Shown one piece after another: positions 19,225-58,200 of a stretch of 64,000 nucleotides of DNA. The stretch's first letter is position 1; each line of letters opens with the position of its first letter. Below the pieces are notes generated by a model, which saw only the letters and a list, made by a program, of their open reading frames with translations, was not told where the DNA came from and did not search any database. The position numbers were made by a program, and so were the translations under genes. The stretch comes from Cytophagia bacterium (GTDB lineage: Bacteria; Bacteroidota; Bacteroidia; Cytophagales; Spirosomataceae). Location: the NCBI GenBank assembly GCA_004293645.1, contig REAB01000067.1, forward strand, positions 1-64,000. The letters run 5' to 3'.

Positions 19225-19355
19225 TCAAAAATATTTTTACTTTGTTGTATTTTATCGAAATATTTTTTGTCCACAACAAAAAACCTTTGTTGAATTTCTA
19301 TATCAATAGAGCGTTCGTTATCTTGATATGAAACCCACCAATAATAATATCATCG

Positions 19356-19553
19356 TAGTTGGGCAGAAATAGGCGGTTCGCCGCTCCGATGCTATTATTT
19401 TTGATTTGCAATAAAGGGAAATCTGGTCTTAATAAACTGATAACCAGACAATTACAACAAATTACTGTAATTACAAACAATTACAACAAATTACTGTAAT
19501 TACAAACAATTACAACAAATTACTGTAATTACAAATAATTACGAGTAACTACT
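19356..19553. repeat. Interspersed intergenic element, copy 1, with three 29-bp tandem units
   Basis: The left part (19356-19447; contains GCAGAAATAGGCGGTTCGCC) is clearly similar to 50258-50350. The right part is three exact copies of a 29-bp unit (19448-19476, 19477-19505, 19506-19534) with the core AATTACTGTAATT, a 6-bp dyad around one base. A tail ATTACGAGTAACTACTTA follows, shared with copy 2. Most of the 389-base gap between lrp and the symporter gene is this element; the rest is the lrp promoter region. Confidence 0.85.
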
Positions 19554-20956
19554 TACTGGGGCAAAGGCATGAGATTACTTTTATTGGGCTTTTCCCAATA
19601 ACTCCCCACCAACATCCCTCCCAAACTGGCTGCAGTGCCGTACAAAATGGCTGGGAATGTGGTGTTCAAAACAAAAGCGCAGAGCAGCCAAACGCCCAAG
19701 CCCAACGACATCGAAGCCAAACAGCCTGCGTTGGTGGCGCGTTTCCAGTAAAGTCCAAAAGTGAGCGGTACAAACAAAGATACCAAGCTAAACGCCGACG
19801 ACTCGCCCACCAACTCAAAAATATCTTGCCGCGCCAAGCCCATCAAGACCGAGGCCAACGTAACAAAAACAACGGCACCCCGAATCACCGCCAGCAGTTG
19901 TTGGTCGGTTAAATGGGGATAGCGCGGCTTAATGAGGTTTTCGCCCAGTACGGCGGCAGGAGCCAAAATAGCGCCACTGCTGGTACTCAACAAAGCCGAA
20001 ATCAACGCCCCAAAAAACAGCACTTGAATCCAAACGGGGGCGTGGTTTAAAATCATGCGCGGAATGATGAGTTTGGGGTCGCCTTGCAGCAATTCGGGGT
20101 ATAAACTTTTGGCTATCAGCGCAATAAAGAGTGGTAAAACGGCGACCGTCAAATACAAAATACCCGCTAAAATAGACGAACGCACGGCCGTTTTGGCATC
20201 TTTGGAAGCCATAACCCGCTGAAAAATATCTTGCTGTGGAATAGACCCCAGGCCAATGGTTATCCAAGCAGCTACGTACTCGGCCCAGCTCTGAAAAGAA
20301 TGTTGCACGGGCAAGAACCTAAAAAAATGGTCAGGTTGCTGGGCCACGACTGGCGCAAAACCGCCCGTTTGGCTGAGCAAAATAACCAGTATCACCACCA
20401 GCCCGATGATGAGCAAAATGTTGTGAATAAAGTCAGTAATAGAAATGGACCACATTCCGCCCATGAGCGTATAGGTCATGACAAGCGTGGCACCTACCCA
20501 GATACCCGTCGTGAGTGGTAATCCAAAAATAACTTGCCCCACTACGCCCATGGCCACAAATTGGGCGGCAATCCAACCAAAATAAGAAGGAATAATCATA
20601 ACTGCCGATAAGAACTCGGCTTTTTTGCCAAAACGAATCAAGAAAAAATCGCAGAACGTGATGATGTTCCATTTGTAGAAAGTACGGGCAAAAAAAATGC
20701 CTACCAAAATGAGGCACAAAGCGGCACCAAAAGGTTCTTCGATAACGCTCAAAATGCCGCCTTCTATAAAATGAGCGGGCGCGCCCATCATGGTTTCTGA
20801 GCCAAACCACGTGGCAAACGTTACCATGGTGGCCAGTGCCAACGGCAAACGCCGCCCCGCCAGCACAAAATCTTCGGTGTTTTTTACGCGGCGCGAAGCC
20901 CAAAAACCCACCGCCAAATTGAGCAACAGGTAAACGATAATGCAAAAAATAAGCAT
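19553..20956 (-). CDS. Sodium:solute symporter (SSS/SLC5 family)
   Basis: A 467-residue inner-membrane protein with about 12-13 hydrophobic helices. The N-terminal LLNLAVGFWASRRVKNTEDFVLAGRRLP pattern, ATWFGSETMMGAPAHFIEGG in helix 2, and QQDIFQRVMASKDAKTA in the middle are typical of SSS symporters. The partly conserved residues of the sodium site lie in helices 1 and 8. The transported solute (often choline, proline, pantothenate or sugars) cannot be told from sequence. The gene starts 28 bases after the PorU2-like gene and is probably co-transcribed with it, though a functional connection is not obvious. Its 3' end meets the interspersed element. Confidence 0.82.
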   Translation of the reverse strand: MLIFCIIVYLLLNLAVGFWASRRVKNTEDFVLAGRRLPLALATMVTFATWFGSETMMGAPAHFIEGGILSVIEEPFGAALCLILVGIFFARTFYKWNIITFCDFFLIRFGKKAEFLSAVMIIPSYFGWIAAQFVAMGVVGQVIFGLPLTTGIWVGATLVMTYTLMGGMWSISITDFIHNILLIIGLVVILVILLSQTGGFAPVVAQQPDHFFRFLPVQHSFQSWAEYVAAWITIGLGSIPQQDIFQRVMASKDAKTAVRSSILAGILYLTVAVLPLFIALIAKSLYPELLQGDPKLIIPRMILNHAPVWIQVLFFGALISALLSTSSGAILAPAAVLGENLIKPRYPHLTDQQLLAVIRGAVVFVTLASVLMGLARQDIFELVGESSAFSLVSLFVPLTFGLYWKRATNAGCLASMSLGLGVWLLCAFVLNTTFPAILYGTAASLGGMLVGSYWEKPNKSNLMPLPQ

Positions 20957-32501: not shown

Positions 32502-33323
32502 TTGGAAGGTTTCCTCTCTGAATTACTGGGAGAGGAAATTAAAATCAAGCAGATTCTTGACAGCGAAAGCAACAAAGAATCGGAAGATGATAAGTTTAAC
32601 CGCGTAGATATTCTTGTAGAAAATGCAAAGGGCGAGTTGGTCATCATTGAAGTTCAAAATAGCAAAGAATATGATTATTTTCAGCGAATGTTGTACGGTA
32701 CGTCGAAAGTTATCACCGAACACATCAAAGAAGGGCAGCCTTATGCAGATGTAAAAAAAGTAATTTCGATAACTATTGCCTATTTTGATTTGGGGCAAGG
32801 TAAAGATTACGTTTACCATGGAACGACCACTTTTAAAGGCATACACAAAAACGACATCTTGGCTTTGGCCGATTTTAAAGGCATACACAAAAACGACATC
32901 TTGGCTTTGGCCGAAAAACAGGTAGAATTGTATCGAAAGGATAATATCTACCAGATATTTCCCGAATATTGGGTAATAAAAGTCGGGAAATTTGGCAATA
33001 GAGTAAAAGATAAGTTGGACGAATGGATTTACTTTTTTAAGAATTCGGAGATAAAAAATGATTTTTCAGCAAAAGGATTGAAGGAGGCAAGTGAGCGGCT
33101 CGACGAGATGAAATTGAACGAAAAAGATGCCAAAGAGTATAAAAAATACCTCACAAACCTGCGCGATGTTGCCAGCGACCAGCACACCAAAATGGCAGAC
33201 GCACAATCTTTAATAAAAAAAGGAAAAACAGAGGTAGCTCAAAATCTCAAAATGATGGGATTGTCGATGCTGGATATAAAAAAAGCGACAGGATTGACCG
33301 ATGCAGAAATAGAGCAACTGTAA
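32502..33323 (+). CDS. Rpn-type PD-(D/E)XK nuclease family protein, start lost and internally duplicated
   Basis: An open frame of 273 codons from TTG 32502. The nuclease motif is Asp36 (NRVDILVE) then Glu50-x-Gln52 (IIEVQNSKEYDYFQRM), followed by the family's SITIAYFDLGQGKDYVYHG and HKNDIL segment, then a helical C-terminus ending in a small HTH-like tail. In the related family the EGFLSELL block is preceded by about 20 residues with a normal Met. Here the frame continues upstream to 32442 without any ATG before a stop, so the true start is missing or is a rare codon. A 42-bp tandem duplication (32831-32914) repeats FKGIHKNDILALAD. Probably a decaying gene, AT-rich like the other Rpn gene. 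Confidence 0.6.
   Translation: MEGFLSELLGEEIKIKQILDSESNKESEDDKFNRVDILVENAKGELVIIEVQNSKEYDYFQRMLYGTSKVITEHIKEGQPYADVKKVISITIAYFDLGQGKDYVYHGTTTFKGIHKNDILALADFKGIHKNDILALAEKQVELYRKDNIYQIFPEYWVIKVGKFGNRVKDKLDEWIYFFKNSEIKNDFSAKGLKEASERLDEMKLNEKDAKEYKKYLTNLRDVASDQHTKMADAQSLIKKGKTEVAQNLKMMGLSMLDIKKATGLTDAEIEQL
32831..32914 (+). repeat. Exact 42-bp tandem duplication inside the Rpn-type gene
   Basis: The unit 32831-32872 (starting TTTTAAAGGCATACACAAAA) is repeated exactly at 32873-32914. It keeps the reading frame and adds 14 residues beside the nuclease domain. Exactness shows it is recent. Confidence 0.95.
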
Positions 33324-50257: not shown

Positions 50258-50435
50258 AGTAGTTGGTCAGAAATAGGCGGTTCGCCGCTGCGATTATATT
50301 ATTTTTGATTTGTAATAAAGGGTAATTTGGTAATAATAAATTGATAAACATCGGACCGCACGGGCGGCCCCGCGCCGACGCGGGCAATTACAACAAATTA
50401 CTGTAATTACAAACAATTACGAGTAAGTACTTATC
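50258..50435. repeat. Interspersed intergenic element, copy 2
   Basis: 50258-50348 (with GTTGGTCAGAAATAGGCGGT) matches 19356-19447 with a few changes. After a GC-rich insert 50351-50384 with its own hairpin CCCGCG-CCGA-CGCGGG, one unit of the 29-bp tandem repeat (about 50386-50414) and the shared tail ATTACGAGTAAGTACTTA follow. It forms the left half of the 429-base gap between the GMC gene and the gene at 50684. The remaining bases (50436-50683) hold no clear signal. Confidence 0.82.
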
Positions 50436-51438: not shown

Positions 51439-53088
51439 TCACAACGAAACGCCGCGTTTCCAGGGAATAAAATCGTCTTGGCCGAGGCGTTGGGCTTGCG
51501 TTAGTTGCTCGCCGCTGGCTATTTTGATAATCAATTCGAGCAATTCGTCGGCATTTTGGGCAATGGTTTGCTCGCCCGAAATAACCGTACCGCAGTCAAA
51601 ATCAATGACATCGGGCATTCGTTCGGCCAGGGCGGTGTTGGTAGCTACTTTCATGACGGGGCAAATGGGGTTTCCCGTGGGTGTGCCAAGGCCCGTTGTA
51701 AATAGAATAATGGTGGCTCCTGCGGCGGTTTTGCCCGTGGTGGCTTCTACGTCGTTGCCAGGCGTACAGGCCAATTGCAGCCCGCGCTCGGTAGATATTT
51801 CGGTGTAGTTGGTTACGTCTTGAATGGGTGCTGTGCCGCCTTTTTTGGCTGCGCCCGCGCTTTTGATGGCATCGGTAATGAGGCCGTCTTTGATATTGCC
51901 AGGCGACGGATTGAACGCAAAAGCCGACCCCACTGCCTCGGCTTTGCCCGAATAATCGCGCATTAGTTTTTCAAACTTGGCCGCTTTTTCTTCGGTTACG
52001 CAGCGATTGAGCAGCTCTTGTTCCACGCCGTGCAACTCTGGAAACTCGGCCAAAATGGTTTTTGCGCCCAACGTTACCAATATATCGGACACTTCGCCCA
52101 GCACGGGGTTGGCCGATATGCCCGAAAACCCGTCGGAGCCGCCGCACTTTAAACCCACCACCAACTCCGAAAGCGGCACATCTTCGCGCGTACATTGATT
52201 GGCTTTGATGAGTCCCAAAAAAGTTTCTTTTACCGCCTGCGACAGCATCGTGTATTCGGTGCCATCTTGTTGTTCAAAAATGAGTAACGGCTTCTCAAAG
52301 TCCGGGCTACGTTGGTGAATCTCTTTTTTGAGCGTACTAATTTCCGAATGTTGGCAGCCCAAACTCAGCACCGTAATACCCGCCACGTTGGGATGAACGG
52401 CATAGGCCGCAAACAACGCGCAGAGGGTGTTGGCATCGTGGCGCGTACCTCCGCAGCCGCCCTCATGGGTCAAAAACTTAATGCCGTCAATGTTTAAAAA
52501 GGGGCGAAGCCCCCCACCCCCCGATGGGGGAGTAACTTTAGCTCCCCCATCGGGGGGTGGGGGGGCTATATTTTGATAAAGATGCAATAATTCGCGCACT
52601 TGGTCGCGGTAGGTTTCGGGTTGGGCGTAGCCGAGTTCGCGCTCAAAGGCATCTTTTAGAATCAAAATATTGCGGTTTTCGCAAAATACCAGCGGTAGCA
52701 CCAGCCAATAATTGTACGTACCCACCTTGCCGTCTTGGCGGCGATACCCTTTAAAAGTGCGTTCCTGCCATTTCTGTACGTTGGGTGGTGTCCAGTGGTA
52801 AGGTTGTCTTTTGGCAGTGCTATACGGTTCGGAGTCGTGTTGCAGGTTGAAAGTCGTGATGGTTTCGCCGCGTTGAATGGGCTGCTTGGCTTTGCCCACC
52901 AGCACGCCATACATGATTACGGGGCTGTTGGTGGCCAAACTTTGGGTTACAAATTTGTGCTTGGCGGCTACGGCATAAGGTAGCTCATAATCAACGCCTT
53001 CGTGCGTGATAACCTCGCCAGCGGCCAAGTTGCGCAGGGCCACAATTACGTTGTCGTTGGGGTGTACTTTTAAAACCTTGTGCTGCAT
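51439..53088 (-). CDS. uxaA: Altronate dehydratase (UxaA) with in-frame palindromic insertion
   Basis: A 549-residue enzyme that dehydrates D-altronate to 2-dehydro-3-deoxy-D-gluconate in galacturonate breakdown. Residues 1-90 are the small SAF-like domain (VALRNLAAGEVI). The large catalytic domain starts about 198 with LTHEGGCGGTRHDANTLCAL, followed by GLKCGGSDGFSGISANP and TGLGTPTGNPICPVMKVATN. Between the domains, residues 175-195 (APPPPDGGAKVTPPSGGGGL) come from a perfect-frame 60-bp palindrome, absent from usual family members. Conserved cysteines of the Fe site are in place, so it may be active if the insertion is tolerated in the linker. No uxaB or uxaC is adjacent, so the family member may act on a related sugar acid. 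Confidence 0.85.
   Translation of the reverse strand: MQHKVLKVHPNDNVIVALRNLAAGEVITHEGVDYELPYAVAAKHKFVTQSLATNSPVIMYGVLVGKAKQPIQRGETITTFNLQHDSEPYSTAKRQPYHWTPPNVQKWQERTFKGYRRQDGKVGTYNYWLVLPLVFCENRNILILKDAFERELGYAQPETYRDQVRELLHLYQNIAPPPPDGGAKVTPPSGGGGLRPFLNIDGIKFLTHEGGCGGTRHDANTLCALFAAYAVHPNVAGITVLSLGCQHSEISTLKKEIHQRSPDFEKPLLIFEQQDGTEYTMLSQAVKETFLGLIKANQCTREDVPLSELVVGLKCGGSDGFSGISANPVLGEVSDILVTLGAKTILAEFPELHGVEQELLNRCVTEEKAAKFEKLMRDYSGKAEAVGSAFAFNPSPGNIKDGLITDAIKSAGAAKKGGTAPIQDVTNYTEISTERGLQLACTPGNDVEATTGKTAAGATIILFTTGLGTPTGNPICPVMKVATNTALAERMPDVIDFDCGTVISGEQTIAQNADELLELIIKIASGEQLTQAQRLGQDDFIPWKRGVSL
52508..52567. repeat. GC-rich palindromic element inside the uxaA gene
   Basis: 52508-52532 (AGCCCCCCACCCCCCGATGG then GGGAG) pairs with 52542-52567 around a 9-nt loop, with one extra G in the right arm. 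Its style (C/G-runs with ATGGGGGAG) suits an intergenic element, yet it is read through in frame. Confidence 0.9.
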
Positions 53089-53936: not shown

Positions 53937-54062
53937 GAGGTTTGTTATTTGTGGTTTGAAATTTGTGGTTTGAAATTTGAAGTTTACCATTTACACATTT
54001 TACCATTTACGCATTTACCACTTACGCACTTACGCATTTTACCATTTACGCACTTACGCATT
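53937..54062. repeat. Degenerate short tandem repeats
   Basis: Two series follow each other: GTGGTTTGAAATTT units (53946-53985), then CATTTACGCACTTA-type units (53986-54062). The stop codon of the flavoprotein gene (54054-54056 on the minus strand) lies within the second series. Confidence 0.75.
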
Positions 54063-55325
54063 TACCATTCCTTGCCCCGCTACGTAGCCAGTTGTCCACG
54101 CCGACTGAAAATTATATCCGCCCGTAATGCCATCAATATCAAGTACTTCGCCCGCAAAAAACAATCCTTTTAGTTTTTTACTTTCGAGGGTTTGGGGGTC
54201 TATTTCGTTCAAATCTATGCCGCCGCAGGTTACAAACTCTTCCTTAAAAGTAGTTTTTCCGCGCACCAAGAATGGGCAATTGGTAAGGTGTTCGGCCAAG
54301 CGATTGAGGTTTTTGGCGGGCAAATCGGCCCAGCGCATTGTATCTGGAATGTGCGACATTTCTAACAGCAACACCCACAACCGATGCGGCAAATCGGCAA
54401 AAGGCAAGGTGTGAACAAACTTCAATCGGTAGCGCAAGTCTTGGCGGGCTTCTTCGAGTGCTTGCCGCGCCACTTGGTCGGTTTTGAAAGTTGTAAAGTT
54501 GGCCAGAGCCGTAAAAGCATAGTTTTTTTCGGCCAATGTGCGCGCCCCCCAAGCCGACGTGCGCAACACCGAAGGCCCGCTCAATCCAAAATGCGTGAAC
54601 AACAGCGGCCCTTGCTCGTCGAGTTTAGTGCCCGCCACCCGCACCCGAGCCAGCTTTACGGCCACGCCACTCAACGCATGAAACGGCGACTCTGGCACAT
54701 TGAACGTAAACAACGACGGCGTAGGCACAACCACCGACAGTCCCAATTGCGCCAGCCAATCGTAGCCCGTTGATTGGGGGTGTCCGCCCGACGTAATAAG
54801 CACGCGGTCAAATTCGTGGGTGGTAGCGTCGGCAGTGGTAAGTCTAAACCGTCCCGATTCGGTGGGGCAAATTTGAGCAACGGCACAGCTCGTTTTTACC
54901 TCAATACCAGCGCGTTGGGCGGCGTTAAGCAAACAATTGATAATGGTTTCGGAACGGTCGGTGGTAGGAAATACGCGCCCGTCTGGCTCGGTTTTGAGGG
55001 CTACGCCGCGTTTTTCAAACCACGCCACGGTGTCGTGGTTGTTGAAAATTTCAAACAAAGGGCGCAGAAATTTTGCCCCGCGTGGATAGCCCGCGCAAAG
55101 TTGCGGCAGCGTGGCGGCGGCGTTGGTAACGTTGCAACGCCCCCCACCCGACACCCGCACTTTGCTCAGTACGGCGCGGTTTTTCTCAAAAATAGTAACG
55201 CTGGCGTGATGTCCGTGTTTTTCGGCGGCAGCGATGGCTCCCATGAAGCCCGCCGCGCCGCCACCCACCACGCCGATTTGAATTTTTGTCAATTTAACAA
55301 TTTGTTTTGCGTAATTTTGGGTCAA
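54054..55325 (-). CDS. BaiN/HI0933-family FAD-dependent oxidoreductase
   Basis: A 423-residue flavoprotein with the FAD-binding motif GVVGGGAAGF (18-27), the GGGRCNVTN motif typical of HI0933-type proteins (about 59-67), and RVFPTTDRSETI. The C-terminal part contains TCGGIDLNEIDPQTLESK and FAGEVLDIDGITGGYNFQSAW, characteristic of this family. The substrate is unknown; BaiN acts on bile acids in gut bacteria, but most members are unassigned. The start ATG at 55325 lies 12 bases from the divergent DUF4905 start, so the two promoters overlap. The 3' end runs into a simple repeat that supplies the stop codon. Confidence 0.85.
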   Translation of the reverse strand: MTQNYAKQIVKLTKIQIGVVGGGAAGFMGAIAAAEKHGHHASVTIFEKNRAVLSKVRVSGGGRCNVTNAAATLPQLCAGYPRGAKFLRPLFEIFNNHDTVAWFEKRGVALKTEPDGRVFPTTDRSETIINCLLNAAQRAGIEVKTSCAVAQICPTESGRFRLTTADATTHEFDRVLITSGGHPQSTGYDWLAQLGLSVVVPTPSLFTFNVPESPFHALSGVAVKLARVRVAGTKLDEQGPLLFTHFGLSGPSVLRTSAWGARTLAEKNYAFTALANFTTFKTDQVARQALEEARQDLRYRLKFVHTLPFADLPHRLWVLLLEMSHIPDTMRWADLPAKNLNRLAEHLTNCPFLVRGKTTFKEEFVTCGGIDLNEIDPQTLESKKLKGLFFAGEVLDIDGITGGYNFQSAWTTGYVAGQGMVNA

Positions 55326-58016: not shown

Positions 58017-58050
58017 TTAAGATGCTGTAAAAATTTAAGTAATGAGTTAA

Positions 58051-58128
58051 AATTTTTGTCATGCTGACGAAGGAAGCATCTAAGGCAGATGCGTTTTTAG
58101 ATGCTTCGTGCCTCAGCATGACAAAATT
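58051..58128. repeat. Imperfect inverted repeat with GTCATGCTGA ends
   Basis: 58057-58081 (TGTCATGCTGACGAAGGAAG then CATCT) pairs with 58099-58123 except for a 5-nt mismatched centre. AATTTT/AAAATT flank both ends. Elements with such ends are frequent in Cytophagales genomes and look like miniature mobile or REP-type sequences. It lies between the yhhQ-like gene and the YyaL-like gene, both on the minus strand. Confidence 0.7.
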
Positions 58129-58200
58129 ATTTCTCTTTGTTCAAAATGATATTATGCTTTTTTTATTCTTCCATTTTAACGCCTTTTCAAGGCAAATTGT

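Follow-up and report, generated by a model that had tools for sequence, protein, structure and literature searches.

A palindromic repeat read in frame within an altronate dehydratase gene of a Spirosomataceae bacterium may be a mini-form of a DUF559 nuclease-carrying mobile element

We analysed a window of 64,000 nucleotides (positions 1 to 64,000 of contig REAB01000067.1, assembly GCA_004293645.1) from a member of the Spirosomataceae. Its minus strand harbours an ORF of 549 aa, uxaA, with Pfam matches to SAF (residues 12-82), GD_AH_second (114-294) and GD_AH_C (306-547), which confirm that it belongs to the altronate dehydratase family. Within this gene lies a 60-bp imperfect palindrome. Its stem of 23 bp is perfect (52510-52532 with 52542-52564) and encloses a loop of 9 nt, and the imperfection is a single bulged G ahead of the outer AG/CT pair. 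The features of the locus are as follows:

51439..53088, minus strand: uxaA host gene, altronate dehydratase family, 549 aa (ORF and Pfam matches)
52508..52567, no strand: complete palindromic element, an inverted unit pair (sequence, fold z of -6.4, genome family)
52510..52532, plus strand: unit 1, CCCCCCACCCCCCGATGGGGGAG (exact in the pattern scan)
52533..52541, no strand: 9-nt loop, TAACTTTAG (sequence)
52542..52564, minus strand: unit 2, inverted copy of unit 1 (exact minus-strand match in the pattern scan)
52507..52569, minus strand: codons 174-194, IAPPPPDGGAKVTPPSGGGGL, replacing the ancestral linker (alignment with relatives; low-confidence coil in the model)

When the 121-nt region around the palindrome was folded as RNA, a free energy of -64.8 kcal/mol was obtained (z = -6.4), and none of 200 shuffled sequences was equally stable. 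The uxaA ORF runs in frame through the palindrome, and codons 174-194 derive from the element. The preliminary description had reported both the palindrome and the unbroken frame, and both proved to be real. It had also placed the element exactly at the join of the two UxaA domains, which holds only in part: the element lies inside the GD_AH_second envelope and not at a Pfam boundary, but the solved GarD structure can be aligned to UxaA only from residue 196 onward. In the AlphaFold model of UxaA (mean pLDDT 82.5), residues 174-201 are without secondary structure and pLDDT is about 50-60 over residues 171-190. The predicted low-confidence coil agrees with the linker location that had been proposed, and the region 171-201 looks, as expected, like a flexible linker in the model. 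A search of plasmids with the uxaA region gave nothing beyond a 52-bp conserved piece of altronate dehydratase.

UxaA relatives of the same family and the same order are all hypervariable at the position of the element when aligned. At the DNA level, the element sits exactly between the YQN and RPF codons, where the Runella counterpart is GQLETVQKLAPFTDSSTPRPWSNDLN. The palindrome was absent in all relatives examined and from all 106 other UxaA linkers examined. Among the 107 linkers, the longest palindromic stem is the one described here (23 bp, next best 8), and the Pro+Gly share is likewise highest here (43%, next best 26%); no other linker combines with these values, so that the idea withstood the refuting check that the preliminary description had set for it. 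The distance between the anchors CENRN and N(V/I)DG is 63 residues here, 62-75 in relatives and 68 in Runella defluvii. The net gain of about 21 residues that had initially been assumed has to be given up, since a similar linker length in relatives points to replacement. These alignments show that the uxaA element took over the position of a variable interdomain linker and is not a net addition.

To describe the repeat family, we used pattern scans and 274 kb of stretches around the sites, on which all site counts rest. The uxaA arm has 66 matches in this genome at up to 3 mismatches, whereas the reversed-pattern control gave 0. A degenerate unit, C4-NNN-C5-NAN-G5, gave 99 exact matches versus 1 in the reversed control, and a looser search allowing up to 1 mismatch gave 163 versus 6. 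With a slightly stricter unit, most relatives had 0-2 copies, one genome of the same family had 12 and one of another family had 48. This Spirosomataceae genome is thus rich in the repeat family, which is rare in most of the relatives. A unit measures about 25 bp, forms a small hairpin of its own and is found singly or in inverted pairs; arms that belong to one site often differ in subtype, as BIME arms do. In three of five unit variants all six frames are free of stop codons, and in the other two a stop interrupts two frames out of six. A local origin of the palindrome within uxaA was ruled out by the genome-wide copies. These copies, together with the absence of the palindrome from the other 106 UxaA linkers, bear out the earlier proposal that a dispersed repeat was converted into coding sequence.

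The copy in uxaA is not isolated, as dozens more ORFs, many of them for core enzymes, carry the element in frame. Of the 104 unit sites that were read, 66 (63%) lie no less than 60 codons deep in ORFs of 200 codons or more; with a margin of 30 codons the number is 71. The other sites are mostly intergenic or at ORF ends. As 58% of random positions in the same stretches meet the same criterion, copies are found in genes about as often as random positions, a comparison that is approximate because the stretches are centred on the sites. Hosts identified with Pfam include LeuRS (three sites), ValRS and AlaRS (two sites each), PurH, HisF, KdsB, LigA, CarB, GltB, UvrA, Mfd, MetH, AcrB and the 2-oxoacid dehydrogenase E2. 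No clear frame-breaking copy was seen among the sites outside these 66, part of which were verified by homology. A peptidase-C39 ABC transporter (L072:71-2350) is split by a stop codon that lies in frame ahead of its palindrome; its paralogue (L085) is intact and has the element at the same linker.

We compared 14 host sites (the uxaA site and 13 others) with Runella or Telluribacter homologues. The palindrome was absent from the homologues at all 14 sites, and the loops concerned are rich in indels. Relative to these homologues, UvrA, GltB, AlaRS and LeuRS site B have gained the copy almost purely by insertion, and in PurH, ValRS, CarB, LeuRS site A and UxaA it replaces existing sequence. In the loops of HisF, KdsB, LigA and ValRS, a Runella-like genome (G030) has a different in-frame repeat-like sequence of the CAGTTCACAGTTCACAGT / CTCACTTCTCACTTC type (L256, L252, L254, L264). 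These repeats are unrelated to ours, which suggests that the four loops act as general repeat sinks. In a histidine kinase gene of the same Runella-like genome (L185) and of the genome studied here (L073), a unit is seemingly located at the same position (SPLTPDGGI), so that this copy is apparently common to two genera.

One host contains a longer form. In the metH ORF of this genome (1468 aa) we found AGCCCCCTAACCCCCAGAGGGGGAAT, followed by a DUF559 domain and an inverted arm, all in frame. Elsewhere in this ORF, the same arms enclose a short remnant at a second site, and the interior of this remnant is similar to that of the full form at 26 of 33 nt. The DUF559 domain is described from Vsr-like PD-(D/E)XK nucleases; in Caulobacter, a protein with this domain has been linked to DNA damage (PMC12907096). 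Only two DUF559 genes are present in this genome, and the domain was detected in 148 of 291 genomes of the order. An ORF length of at least 400 aa was found for 58 of 150 tabulated DUF559 matches, and for some of these the host was identified. In relatives, DUF559 occurs in frame within MetH (both sites), IleRS, MnmE, LeuRS and Eco57I-type methylases. In ten DUF559-bearing ORFs, the host frame continues without a break and Pfam matched no intein domain. Embedded and free-standing DUF559 domains conserve the same residues, such as E, D and E-x-D-G-x-x-H. In several genomes of one family (L305, L308, L309, L315, L318, L321), a GATase_5 (PurL-like) protein carries DUF559 at its C-terminal end, and these loci have long flanking inverted repeats with scores of 36-51 where measured.

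Nuclease and palindrome coincide in position. Three LeuRS loops (A, B and C) hold DUF559 cassettes in other genera and palindromes in this genome. The nuclease is present in several genera each at LeuRS sites A and B and at one MetH site, and in one genus at LeuRS site C. The metH cassette site of this genome is common to three other genera, and its metH remnant site corresponds to a cassette site in G006 and to a palindromic unit in G055. Homologous positions therefore show empty, palindrome-only and nuclease-carrying states. An inverted repeat scoring at least 14 between the 200-bp flanks was present at 61% of 44 DUF559 loci from across the order versus 0.4% of shifted controls (p = 8.6e-13); at about four in ten of the 44 loci a strong flanking inverted repeat was not found. 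The flanking repeats are C/G-run palindromes with an architecture like that of the arms described here, and the hairpin stems flanking DUF559 have a median of 9 bp versus 5 in controls. Moreover, the three nucleases associated with the arm type of this genome (two in metH and one in LeuRS, from two families) group together with an SH-aLRT support of 93.

Taken jointly, these data lead us to favour a reading in which the copy in uxaA is a mini-form, devoid of the nuclease, of a mobile element that has DUF559 between inverted C/G-run units, and we consider this reading probable. One element family would then comprise a full form with arms and a Vsr-like PD-(D/E)XK endonuclease, partly deleted forms and the nuclease-less palindrome. 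Insertion would be broad across the genome, and the surviving genic copies would be those that preserve the frame and reside in insertion-tolerant loops. Since the units are without stop codons in most frames, the host protein would simply gain a Pro/Gly-rich surface segment, which is presumably translated and tolerated; in uxaA this segment would have displaced the variable linker between the N-terminal and the catalytic parts. The architecture and the shared sites suggest that cutting by DUF559 followed by repair drives the spread, although such DUF559-driven mobility is deduced here from sequence comparison. Mini-forms may have arisen by loss of the nuclease region or may have been moved in trans. 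A point against this reading is that two DUF559 genes stand beside about 100 element sites, so that most copies would need to be old or to have moved in trans. Junction words were no longer than in shuffled pairings, so that target-site duplication was not detected at the junctions; this result is compatible with repair-based entry and is no proof of it. In a wider sense, the data would fit a so far undescribed class of selfish elements in Bacteroidota, in which palindrome-bordered DUF559 is inserted in frame and unspliced into loops of essential enzymes and mini-forms scattered over the genome rewrite protein loops, as in uxaA. We regard the chances for and against this wider claim as evenly balanced.

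The main rival is an RPE-like or REP-like in-frame repeat that has nothing to do with DUF559, with both collecting independently in permissive loops and another enzyme spreading the repeats. The shared LeuRS and MetH sites could stem from permissive loops alone, given that several of the palindrome-bearing loops hold in-frame repeats of unrelated sequence in Runella and that shared sites are expected if insert-tolerant loops are few; the low number of DUF559 genes in this genome also fits. Evidence against it comes from the palindromes that border DUF559 on both sides far above control positions, in host genes as well as at free-standing loci, and from the nuclease group that matches the arm type in the three loci with this arm type. 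We hold this explanation to be rather unlikely, but a serious competitor. Mobilisation of a REP/BIME family by a RAYT (Y1 transposase) would be in keeping with seven Y1_Tnp matches in the genome and with hairpin-forming units that measure about 25 bp and stand alone or as inverted pairs. However, the GTAG or CGTC tag is absent from the five unit variants, the copies are mostly intragenic (63% versus 58% of random positions) and none of the seven Y1_Tnp loci is flanked on both sides by units, the closest case being one unit about 1.2 kb from the gene in L091. RAYT was rejected as the mobiliser because of this lack of flanking units, and the explanation as a whole is very unlikely.

Hairpin inserts that are skipped by ribosomes occur in some mitochondria, and the very stable uxaA hairpin might suggest that the element is removed at the RNA level or bypassed by the ribosome, leaving a protein free of it. 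Excision would require neither a preserved frame nor the absence of stops, whereas both are seen at the 66 long-ORF sites, and in several hosts the original loop has been replaced, so that precise removal would shorten the protein; we find this highly improbable. An assembly artefact could be considered for a metagenome-assembled genome in 241 contigs, as palindromes can mislead assembly. Against dozens of independent in-frame sites, and like inserts at the same positions elsewhere, including the nearly closed G040 (LeuRS) and the 70-contig G055 (MetH), it is hardly credible.

The mobile element that we favour can be compared with several known systems. In-frame palindromes are known from Rickettsia as RPE (Ogata et al. 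2000, 2002, as summarised in PMC10969869 and PMC3733652). The preliminary description had likened the uxaA element to these, and the comparison stands in kind (66 of 104 sites in long ORFs, 14 of 14 compared sites empty in relatives): as far as the summaries describe them, both are dispersed palindromes, many of which are in frame in unrelated housekeeping genes and absent from the orthologues. In contrast, RPEs are about 150 bp long and belong to another phylum, while the family here consists of pairs of C/G-run units of about 60 bp and has a nuclease-carrying longer form in the same gene loops. As lineage and unit length differ, we call the family RPE-like, on the basis of published descriptions, and not RPE. 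Intragenic REPs that encode 20-30 aa have been described in several species, some of them within uvrA and DNA ligase genes (PMC3733652). With REP/BIME systems associated with RAYT (GTAG and CGTC families, PMC3733652) the family shares palindromic units in the range of 20-40 bp that are single or in inverted pairs. It differs in that it has no GTAG or CGTC, is not predominantly extragenic, leaves RAYT unflanked and has DUF559 as its nuclease. Membership in REP was rejected on tags, RAYT flanking and extragenic location.

Like MITEs, the elements are short, have inverted repeats and are possibly internal-deletion derivatives of a longer coding element. Terminal inverted repeats common to the short and the longer coding form were indeed found, as metH has the arrangement arm-DUF559-arm with the same unit type as well as an arm-flanked remnant. 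Unlike in MITEs, target-site duplication was undetected, an endonuclease domain takes the place of a known transposase as the partner, and residence within genes is common. Vsr-like homing endonucleases exist among homing endonuclease genes, and the presence of a Vsr-like nuclease at the same conserved-gene sites in distant genera resembles homing endonucleases and inteins. Here, by contrast, the host enzyme contains the nuclease within its own reading frame, the borders of the nuclease are palindromic and no intein domain was matched in the ten ORFs examined with Pfam.

In-frame palindromic inserts have hitherto mainly been treated as a peculiarity of Rickettsia and some scattered genomes rich in REPs. 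In the present case they are abundant in another phylum, reside in core enzymes and have a candidate partner enzyme at the same gene positions in distant genera. The entry of repeats into proteins thereby becomes testable in culturable relatives, and a role is suggested for the widespread but little-studied DUF559 genes. In open-licence papers, we found none that links DUF559 to palindromes, tRNA synthetases, Bacteroidetes or insertion into host genes, and nothing relevant on in-frame palindromes in Bacteroidota. The mode is RPE-like, but in another phylum and with a candidate partner, a novelty that we state with caution.

Other repeats were also seen in the window. A 92-nt unit is present at 19355-19555 and 50259-50433 with 88% identity, each time followed by TAATTACAAACAATTACAACAAATTACTG-type repeats, and looks like another dispersed family. 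A second palindromic repeat type lies at 58049-58131, where an inverted repeat has arms of 35 nt (TGTCATGCTGACGAAGGAAGCATCTAA...). In addition, 42 bp, a length divisible by three, are perfectly duplicated in tandem at 32831-32914, and a short intergenic array of CATTTACGCATTTACC-like units lies at 53988-54065.
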